Of a stretch of 64,000 bases of DNA, positions 20,887 to 23,460 are shown piece by piece (position 1 is the first letter of the stretch; each line of letters starts with the position of its first letter). This DNA comes from an uncultured Marinilabiliaceae bacterium (GTDB lineage: Bacteria; Bacteroidota; Bacteroidia; Bacteroidales; Marinilabiliaceae): NCBI GenBank assembly GCA_937920475.1, contig CALEUX010000004.1, positions 1 to 64,000 of the forward strand. The letters are read 5' to 3'. The position numbers and the translations under genes were made by a program. Under the pieces are notes generated by a model, which saw only the letters and a list, made by a program, of their open reading frames with translations, was not told the origin of the DNA and ran no database searches.

Positions 20887-23376
20887 ATGGAAATAAAAAA
20901 GCGACTGCAAAAAAAGCAAAGTAAAATCTTTTCATACATTTTACTCTTTGTGTTTTTATTGCCTGTATTTATTGCCTGTCAGCAACAAAAACAGGCCAGA
21001 ACTGAAATTCTTTTCGACGACGATTGGATGTTTCAATTGGGAGATGTAGAAGGTGCCGAAAGTCCTTTATTTAACGATGACTCTTGGCGCACCCTCGATT
21101 TACCGCACGACTGGAGCATCGAAAATCTTCCCAATCAGGAATCCGACAACGTTGTTGGGCCATTCTCCAAAGAAAGCATAGGAGCAACAGCAACCGGATA
21201 CACTTTTGGTGGAACAGCCTGGTATCGTAAAACTTTTACACTCGATAAGGACAAGCGTTTTAACCAAACCATTATCAATTTCGATGGTGTATATATGAAC
21301 AGCGAGGTGTGGGTAAATGGTAAGCTGGCGGGCATTCAACCTTATGGCTATACTGCTTTTCAATTCGATATTACCGAATTGCTTAATGCTCCCGGCCAAC
21401 CCAATGTTTTAGCCGTAAAAGTTAAAAACGAAGGCAAAAACTCCCGATGGTACAGCGGTTCGGGTATATATCGCCATGTTTGGCTTATTCAAAAGCAACC
21501 CTTACGCATTGAACACAATGGCGTGTTTGTAAATACCGAGAGTATTTCTGAGAATGAAGCAAATATAACCATAACTGCAACAGTTGAGAACAGTACAAAC
21601 GCTGGTGTGGATGTTAGTTTGCAGATTCGCATCATCGATGGTAACGGGAAAGTTGCAACCACCTCAAAAACTCCTGTTAGGAATATTAACCGCGGTTCAG
21701 AGGACATTATTCAACGTATAACAGTACCTCAAGCCAAATTGTGGTCGCACGAAACTCCCAACCTTTATACAGCAGAGGTTAAAGTAATAGCCGATAGAAC
21801 AGTTACCGACCAAACAGCAACCGCATTTGGAATACGCACCATACATTTTGATGCAAAAACGGGATTTACCGTTAACGGAAAAACGGTGCTTCTGAAAGGA
21901 GGAAACCTTCACCACGACAATGGCTTTTTGGGTGCAGCAACCATCGACCGTGCTGAAGAACGCCGTGTAGAATTGATGAAAGCAAATGGTTTCAACGCCA
22001 TACGCGCTGCTCATAACCCGCCTTCGAAACAGTTCCTTGAGGCCTGCGACCGCTTGGGCGTTTATGTAATGAACGAGGCTTTTGACCAATGGGTTCGACC
22101 TAAAAACCCACAGGATTACCATCTGTATTTCCGCGAATGGTGGCAAAAAGACCTTAAATCAATGATTTACCGCGACCGAAATCATCCTTCTGTAATTTTC
22201 TGGAGTATTGGTAATGAGCTTAATGAACGAGCCGACTCAATTGGATATGTTATCCGAAAAGAACTGGCAGCAGAAGTTCGTAAACTCGACCCTACAAGAC
22301 CTGTAACAGAAGGGGTTTGTGAGTTTTGGGACCATTGGGGCAGAGAATGGTCAACGGCGGCTCCTGTATTTACCGACCTGGATGTGGCAGGTTATAATTA
22401 TCTGCAAAAATTTTTCGAATCAGACCATGCCGAGTATCCCGACCGAATAGTTGTGAGCACCGAGTCGTATGCCGCCGAAGCGTATGCTTTTTGGCAAGGG
22501 GTTGAGAAAAACTCCTATGTAATTGGCGATTTTGTATGGACAGGCATGGACCATCTGGGAGAAACCGGATGCGGCAACTCAAAAATTGCCCCGGAACCCG
22601 GCCCACGAGTAGGGCTTCAGCCATGGCCATGGTTTAGCAACTATTGTGGCGATATTGACCTTTGTGGAAATAAAAAACCTCAATCGTATTATCGCGATGT
22701 GGTTTGGGATAACAGCAAAATTGAAATGATGGTTCATACGCCATTACCCGAAGGCATGGTTGAAACATACAGTTACTGGGGCTGGCCTGATGAGTATCCA
22801 AGTTGGAACTGGGAGGGTTACGAAGGCACAACAATGGATGTGAGGGTATTCTCTAAGAGCCCTGTTGTACGTTTGGAATTAAACGGCAAGTTGATTGGAG
22901 AACAGACTATTGATACAAATATTGGCATCACCGCCAATTATAAAGTCCCTTATCAGGCTGGTGTAATAAAAGCCATTGCACTTGAAAACGGAAAAGAAGT
23001 TGCCTCAAAAGAGCTTAAAACAACAGGGGCACCGGCAAAAATAAAACTTACTGCCGATAGAGCTGTGATTAAAGCCGATCGCAACGATTTATCCTACGTG
23101 AAAGTTGGGATTACCGACGAACAGGGCAATGTAATACCTGATGCTTCCATTCCGGTTACTTTCACCGTTTCGGGAGTCGGAGAAATTGCCGGTTCGGGAA
23201 ATGCAAACCCAACCGACATGGAAAGTTTTAACAGTCCTGTTTGTAAAACCTTCCGCGGAAAGGCATTGGTAATTCTTCGTCCGATAAAAAACAATATAAG
23301 TGGCACAATCACCCTTACGGCTGAAGCACCAGGTTTAACTACGGGCGAAATTAATATTGAAATTAAAGACAGATGA
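20887..23376 (+). CDS. GH2 beta-galactosidase-like enzyme with C-terminal Ig-like domains
   Basis: DLPHDWSIENLP; VWVNGKLAGIQPYGYTAF; VIFWSIGNELNERAD; VSTESYAAEAY. Confidence 0.92.
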   Translation: MEIKKRLQKKQSKIFSYILLFVFLLPVFIACQQQKQARTEILFDDDWMFQLGDVEGAESPLFNDDSWRTLDLPHDWSIENLPNQESDNVVGPFSKESIGATATGYTFGGTAWYRKTFTLDKDKRFNQTIINFDGVYMNSEVWVNGKLAGIQPYGYTAFQFDITELLNAPGQPNVLAVKVKNEGKNSRWYSGSGIYRHVWLIQKQPLRIEHNGVFVNTESISENEANITITATVENSTNAGVDVSLQIRIIDGNGKVATTSKTPVRNINRGSEDIIQRITVPQAKLWSHETPNLYTAEVKVIADRTVTDQTATAFGIRTIHFDAKTGFTVNGKTVLLKGGNLHHDNGFLGAATIDRAEERRVELMKANGFNAIRAAHNPPSKQFLEACDRLGVYVMNEAFDQWVRPKNPQDYHLYFREWWQKDLKSMIYRDRNHPSVIFWSIGNELNERADSIGYVIRKELAAEVRKLDPTRPVTEGVCEFWDHWGREWSTAAPVFTDLDVAGYNYLQKFFESDHAEYPDRIVVSTESYAAEAYAFWQGVEKNSYVIGDFVWTGMDHLGETGCGNSKIAPEPGPRVGLQPWPWFSNYCGDIDLCGNKKPQSYYRDVVWDNSKIEMMVHTPLPEGMVETYSYWGWPDEYPSWNWEGYEGTTMDVRVFSKSPVVRLELNGKLIGEQTIDTNIGITANYKVPYQAGVIKAIALENGKEVASKELKTTGAPAKIKLTADRAVIKADRNDLSYVKVGITDEQGNVIPDASIPVTFTVSGVGEIAGSGNANPTDMESFNSPVCKTFRGKALVILRPIKNNISGTITLTAEAPGLTTGEINIEIKDR

Positions 23377-23460
23377 AACGAGCCATGAGAATTGTTTCTC
23401 ACACAGGGAAATGACTTTCTGGCGAGTTTCATGTGACCATTAAAAATAAATTTTTAGACA
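23372..23460 (+). repeat. 89-nt structured intergenic repeat, copy 1
   Basis: GATGAAACGAGCCATGAGAATTGTTTCTCACACAGGGAAATGACTTTCTGGCGAGTTTCAT...TTTTAGACA; outer stem ATGAAAC/GTTTCAT and inner hairpin TGAGAA-TTGT-TTCTCA. Confidence 0.85.

Follow-up and report, generated by a model that had tools for sequence, protein, structure and literature searches.

A structured repeat in a polysaccharide-use gene cluster

The window analyzed here is a 64,000-nucleotide stretch of the genome of an uncultured Marinilabiliaceae bacterium (G000), in which positions 20887-47641 form a polysaccharide-use gene cluster (GH2, GH2 of the beta-galactosidase type, GH3, GH31, and GH43). The window holds three copies of a structured repeat, all on the plus strand, and a fourth lies just beyond it (C4:64121-64213). 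Copy 1 lies between two GH2 genes. Its left ATGAA (23373..23377), identified as the target pentamer by empty sites elsewhere and by insertions in RAYT genes (see below), was the start of the downstream GH2 gene before insertion and contains the stop codon of the upstream GH2 gene (TGA, 23374-23376). The 89-nt element that follows, ACGAGCC...ACAGATGAA (23378..23466), scored 100.7 bits with the covariance model of the family (E 5.7e-18), and its RNA fold had a z-score of -5.3. Within it are an inner hairpin, TGAGAA-TTGT-TTCTCA (23386..23403, bounds approximate), in which a pair covaries across the family (A-U/U-A), and a guide strand, GTTTCATGTGA (23425..23435, bounds within about 1 base), for which the family consensus is GTTCCATSTG. 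The guide can pair with the left ATGAAAC (23373-23379) or, alternatively, with the right CAS'ATGAA, the S:S' position being mismatched (G.G) in this copy. The right terminal ATGAA (23462..23466) is supplied by the element and is the start codon of the downstream beta-galactosidase-type GH2 gene (23462-26644).

In copy 2, the left target ATGAA (31304..31308) lies about 18 nt past the stop codon of a GH3 gene, and the 89-nt element (31309..31397; covariance-model E 3.9e-17) ends in an ATGAA (31393) that starts a PETase-like hydrolase gene. This hydrolase (PF12740, 31393-32304) stands directly behind copy 2 within the polysaccharide-use cluster. Copy 3 has a left pentamer GTGAA (45483..45487) and a damaged element (45488 to about 45598; E 1.3e-5) that ends in TTGAA and carries a CCCGGATAAATCGGGAC palindrome nested 3' of the guide; rather than adjoining a start codon, it is separated by about 300 nt from the GH43 gene downstream. 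The nested small palindrome, CCCGGATAAATCGGG, occupies 45543..45558 (bounds approximate), and similar palindromes were found at the same spot in other copies.

A preliminary description of this DNA, made from the letters of the window, had proposed an 89-nt structured repeat in three copies placed against start codons, and the whole-element searches bear out the repeat in all three copies. Its placement against a start codon holds for copies 1 and 2 and fails for copy 3. The overlap of copy 1 with the GH2 stop codon was correctly read, as was the next GH2 ATG at 23462, whereas the start of the copy had been set one base early, at 23372. The pairings described for copy 1 (ATGAAAC with GTTTCAT, GCC with GGC, a GA/GA step between them, and the inner hairpin) are all found in the sequence. 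The perfect ATGAAAC/GTTTCAT pairing of copy 1 is an exception, the usual form in the family being GTTCCAT, in which an A.C mismatch is conserved. The 12-mer AGACAGATGAAA does occur twice, 89 bp apart, but the AGACAG that precedes ATGAAA in both places is not shared by the family, other copies having different left flanks. Used alone with 2 mismatches allowed, this 12-mer gave matches no better than chance. Genome-wide seed matches numbered 70, against 7 for a reversed control pattern.

Distribution and anatomy of the element

The checks named in the preliminary description were further copies in the source genome, covariation, and comparison with Rfam. The source genome (3.35 Mb, 77% complete) contained about 80 copies, as counted, like all genome-wide copy numbers given here, by model searches. 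Relatives in the same family had from zero to about 60 copies each. In an even sample of 296 Bacteroidota genomes, with strict filters applied to the matches, the element was found in 20, belonging to several families of other orders and classes; copy-rich genomes carried from 10 to about 80 copies each. Named genomes with close copies were Natronoflexus pectinivorans (matching G006; about 58 copies in strain DSM 24179), Carboxylicivirga, Labilibacter, Plebeiobacterium, and Prolixibacteraceae bins. The element was not matched in phage and plasmid collections. Rfam searches at gathering and permissive thresholds returned nothing credible (the best weak match was L20_leader, on the other strand, E 0.18), so that no family there matches the element, and no description of it was found in the open-access literature (ISfinder lay outside this search).

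The element is about 89-95 nt long, with the consensus ATGAA|ACGAGCC-(hairpin TGAG...CTCA)-ACACAGGGGATGACTATTATGGCGA-GTTCCATSTG-GMCATTRAAAAACAAATTATARACAS'-ATGAA|. Because the base 3' of the right ATGAA is variable (A, T, or C), the cut was placed after ATGAA, which gives the 89-nt unit 23378-23466 in copy 1. Overall there is one central hairpin, and the right half of the element contains the guide/right-end stem alone.

Two kinds of variant were observed. Small palindromic repeats (CCCGATAAATCGGGAC, CTGAGCCCAGTCGAAG, and GATCGACGAAGTC types) are nested at fixed spots within some copies, including window positions 45543-45558, G006 copies (e.g., L154, L155, and L164), and G007 copies (L390-L397); in G006 and G007, the copies with nested palindromes form subfamilies. 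In a short subfamily of about 70 nt, represented by L177 (G024:C93, upstream of 255586) and by G024 matches of 69-71 nt, the inner part is just a TCCCGAGACTTCCGGA hairpin, and the guide and right end are retained.

The element inserts immediately 3' of ATGAA

Empty sites were sought by comparing G006 with G024, a genome of the same genus, in which the orthologs of 20 genes behind G006 copies were located by one concatenated protein search. Where G006 reads flank-ATGAA|ACGAGCC...CASATGAA|gene, G024 reads flank-ATGAA|gene, and the insertion point is exactly the ATGAA of the start codon. When the G006 flanks were joined without the element, they aligned with G024 over 400 nt without a gap at three loci (C17:21102, C1:157061, and C7:107281, with 93.3, 91.8, and 95.3% identity, respectively); at a fourth locus the identity was 85%, with a single 1-nt gap. 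Only about 3 of the 20 G024 orthologs clearly keep a copy that matches the model, and G024 also holds other short or degenerate forms of the element. At the copy 2 locus, G349 has the same order of GH3 and hydrolase genes without the element, and at the copy 1 locus, the G008 ortholog of the downstream GH2 gene starts without it.

Further observations fit mobility. Three G234 loci that differ in their right flanks carry the same 93-nt unit with 100% identity; tandem arrays consist of exact repeated units that have ATGAA in common; and some copies have no ORF behind them. An ordinary 5'-UTR structure, immobile and inherited vertically with its genes, could account for the related structure retained by a few orthologs (miaA and two others). 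Identical copies at unrelated loci, tandem arrays, and insertions in RAYT coding sequence contradict this account, and the exact empty sites refute it, short of assuming that the element was lost precisely from at least four loci; we regard it as scarcely credible. The comparisons demonstrate the recent spread of the element, its exact insertion, and its boundaries. That it inserts exactly at ATGAA and restores the start codon is, in our judgment, almost certain. The suggestion in the preliminary description of a mobile element that reconstitutes ATGAAA starts is thus borne out by exact empty sites, dispersed identical copies, diverse downstream genes, and a patchy distribution across the phylum.

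Copies inside three RAYT genes of two genera (G001 and G024), antisense and at the same codon, distinguished the target from the end of the element. Two are on the minus strand of L232 (G001:C8:150000-156500; positions 1654-1746 and 4367-4459) and one is on the plus strand of L282 (G024; 2005-2118). The uninterrupted RAYT protein of G006 reads LTFQVV at this point, so that native junction DNA on the element strand is expected to be TTGAA or CTGAA. The left pentamers of the embedded copies are TTGAA and CTGAA, as expected of native DNA, whereas at the right end AAGAA matches the altered guide TTCCTT, and ATAAA matches TTCTAT. The left pentamer is therefore the target and the right pentamer the element's own, and guide and right end vary in concert. 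Both the empty sites and the RAYT insertions show insertion 3' of a fixed short target that is kept at the left, without target duplication, and the difference between left and right pentamers in the RAYT insertions argues against the variable target-site duplication of DDE MITEs. The location of these copies at one codon reflects either an old insertion kept by selection for pairing or a hot spot. The matched variants of guide and right end (TTCCTT:AAGAA and TTCTAT:ATAAA) suggest, from sequence comparison, that the target may be reprogrammable.

One guide strand with two partners

Covariation, the second of the checks named above, was strong. The strongest signal in the family joined S in the guide with S', just 5' of the right ATG. 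Among 38 copies, this pair was G-C in 16, C-G in 15, A-U in one, and G-U in one; in a phylum-wide MAFFT alignment of 50 copies, it was C-G in 18, G-C in 17, and A-U in 10. The 5' stem also covaried, position 7 and the base before TTCCAT being C-G in 34 copies and U-A in 13, and a second short stem was altered on both sides in several lineages. Among all located copies, S and S' were paired in 129 of 142 (shuffles: mean 65, maximum 89) and the 5' stem base in 138 of 148 (shuffles: mean 124.5, maximum 131). These copies came from searches with a model that contains the right-hand stem, a source of bias from which the set of 38 copies, assembled by BLAST and pattern matching, is free. For both stems, none of 500 shuffles of the MAFFT alignments equaled the observed covariation score, and in slid controls the paired fraction dropped to 9-53%. 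Thus two sequences, ATGAAAC on the left and CAS'ATGAA on the right, are real partners of the single strand GTTCCATSTG.

Start codons and translation

The right ATG began an ORF of at least 60 codons in 116 of 168 copies, and 17 further copies lay no more than 70 nt from one, so that roughly 70-80% of copies are at or adjoin starts. Genes in these genomes start with ATGAA more often than with any other pentamer; in the window, 15 of the 34 genes do so, and the DNA between genes contains only about 8 further ATGAA pentamers. A pentamer target, together with the loss of coding insertions, explains most of the association with starts, and no machinery for recognizing starts is needed. The special feature of the element is that it ends in ATGAA, so that the start codon is handed back. 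A leader peptide starting with MKRAM at the left ATG was considered and rejected, as the open frames vary in length from copy to copy and many are truncated.

Covariation in two stems that share one strand would also be expected of a cis-acting RNA switch, in which GTTCCATSTG pairs with either the upstream AUGAAAC or the start codon CASAUGAA and so toggles translation of the downstream gene. The predicted folding agrees with this idea to the extent that it hides the start codon: the median predicted probability of an unpaired AUG was 0.11 with the element, compared with 0.42 when the element was shuffled and 0.37 at those window starts that lack it. However, pairing of the start codon was kept in 96 of 107 copies with an ORF, in 17 of 18 without one, and in 12 of 13 upstream tandem copies, and the downstream genes are unrelated, ranging from miaA-, galE-, and ligT-like genes to glycosidases (names assigned by reading the sequences). 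Since pairing is equal with and without a gene and the downstream genes are unrelated, the structure looks maintained by mobility. Neither hallmark of a regulatory RNA was found, namely conservation at orthologs and loss of structure where no gene follows; the few sister-species orthologs that clearly retain a copy and the insertion at exact empty sites count against a switch as well. We therefore judge an RNA switch improbable. A role as a gene-specific regulator is secondary at most, and the 5'-UTR regulator put forward as the other option in the preliminary description does not hold as the main role, because pairing is equally kept without a downstream ORF and most orthologous genes lack the element. 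If the predicted folding applies, insertions may also lower translation modestly, as a by-product.

Search for the enzyme

No transposase and no tnpA/tnpB copy for the element was identified in searches of these genomes. PF01797 genes were present in 33 of 41 relatives, and those found are associated with other palindromes; neither G000 (77% complete) nor G007 (98% complete, 30 copies) yielded any. Y1 genes were located in the 41 relatives and 6 further genomes, and among the loci whose flanks were scanned none had element ends on both sides; the scan showed only a few copies nearby and the insertions within RAYT genes. With a nearest-neighbor identity of at most 0.90, the copies in G007 are old, and given this age, loss of the enzyme from G007 is possible. 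In G006 and G234, both of which have Y1 genes, copies are 99-100% identical. The occurrence of young copies with Y1 genes and old copies without them would fit a Y1 helper, in a small sample.

Two groups of Y1-related genes were observed during this search. The RAYT-like genes (L230, L231, L233, and L234) encode about 190 aa, are often in tandem, and are flanked by other palindromes, for example GGCACGAGTTGCAAACTCGCGCC or CGTAGCG repeats. L205, L208, L210, L214, and L219 are IS200-like Y1 genes with YIxNQKxHH-type motifs and their own G+C-rich flanking palindromes (e.g., AACCCCAGCCTGAAGGCTGGGGTT), and they resemble orphan Y1 genes with private repeats.

As a special case of the mobile-element explanation, the element could be a substrate, of the REP type, for TnpA_REP (RAYT) enzymes of the Bacteroidetes subclass 2.6. 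Genes of this subclass are reported to have atypical secondary structures on their flanks, with copies elsewhere in the genome (PMC6006769). RAYT-like genes occur in G006, G024, G001, and G008, three of them, from two genera, are interrupted by a copy at one shared codon, and the division between young-copy genomes with Y1 genes (G006 and G234) and old-copy G007 with none is in keeping with such a substrate. Nevertheless, the RAYT genes are flanked by other palindromes, such as GGCACGAGTTGCAAACTCGCGCC, no RAYT match was found in the source genome or in G007, and G005 has RAYTs without any match to the element. Insertion at a fixed start-codon pentamer is not a known property of REPs. This special case appears unlikely, though less so than the RNA switch.

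Comparison with known mobile elements

The target of IS608 is TTAC; insertion takes place on its 3' side and leaves it in the left flank. The guide tetranucleotides of IS608 base-pair with the sites at both ends as well as with new targets, so that a change of guide redirects insertion (PMC5934647, PMC6006769). Like the IS200/IS605 elements (IS608, ISDra2, and miniature PATE-type elements), the present element has its insertion point exactly on the 3' side of a fixed short target that remains in the left flank, makes no true target duplication, has ends oriented in the single-strand style (PMC5934647, PMC6006769), and contains a guide complementary to both target and right terminus. It differs from them in using one guide of about 9 nt for both ends in place of two tetranucleotides, in having a right cleavage site equal to the target ATGAA, by which starts are restored, and in lacking a right-end hairpin, whereas IS200/IS605 elements have a subterminal hairpin at each end with a guide 5' of each foot. 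The guide logic is of the IS608 type, but the geometry is new.

Like REP/REPIN sequences with their TnpA_REP (RAYT) enzymes, the element is a short structured repeat that reaches tens of copies in a genome, lies mostly outside genes, and forms tandem and nested arrays, and several of its host genomes contain Y1 relatives. In REPs the target is not fixed, and a GTAG-type guide lies on the 5' side of a hairpin. The element, in contrast, targets a defined pentamer, and its right end is complementary to the guide; a GTAG-like tetranucleotide 5' of a short hairpin is absent from its consensus, and no RAYT gene flanked by it was found among the loci examined. It also departs from MITEs of DDE transposons, as its ends, ACGAGCC... 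and ...CASATGAA, are not inverted repeats. Like cis-regulatory RNAs in Rfam, it sits in 5' leaders and can pair with the start codon, but it is above no family's gathering threshold.

An integron attC-like site, folded from a single strand and mobilized by a tyrosine recombinase, is suggested by the AAC/GTT ends on the 5' stem, the short unpaired GA/GA spacer, and the second short stem, which resemble R and L boxes. In attC recombination the cut is at G/TT and a right-end complement is not required. The element instead inserts exactly after ATGAA, its right-end ATGAA pairs with the guide, and its copies are single and dispersed at gene starts rather than in a cassette array; moreover, many copies in many lineages have T7-A in place of C7-G, by which the AAC/GTT ends are lost. 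An attC-type site is accordingly very unlikely, if not quite so remote as a vertically inherited 5'-UTR.

Proposed mechanism

We consider it probable that the element is a small non-autonomous mobile DNA (MITE-like) that inserts 3' of ATGAA, and we propose hairpin-guided single-strand movement. It inserts immediately 3' of an ATGAA and ends in its own ATGAA, which at gene starts replaces the start codon, the A/T-rich tail becoming the new initiation region. Coding insertions are lost, and, since ATGAA is the commonest start, the surviving copies lie mostly at start codons. Transposition may be single-stranded and hairpin-guided, like that of IS608 and ISDra2 (HUH Y1 enzymes): the guide would bind the right end of its own element before pairing with a fresh ATGAA target, and a putative enzyme would act in trans. 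By analogy with these systems, a Y1-like single-strand mechanism is somewhat favored. A more specific proposal is that the element represents a Bacteroidota family in which one guide pairs with the right end and then with a possibly reprogrammable target, ATGAA, the commonest start pentamer of the host, so that copies spread among gene starts and restore the start codon as they do so, and in which the enzyme is not a canonical IS200/IS605 transposase; this we put forward tentatively, as falling a little short of an even chance. In mRNA, the guide/start-codon hairpin may lower translation of the gene.

Significance

Many odd leaders of Bacteroidota genes, up to about 80 per genome, are explained as insertions, a reading that matters to annotation, to operon structure, and to claims of new riboregulators. 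The use of one guide for both target and terminus predicts that altering the guide and the right end jointly would alter the insertion site. For the element, targeting and replacing start codons amounts to a safe-haven strategy.
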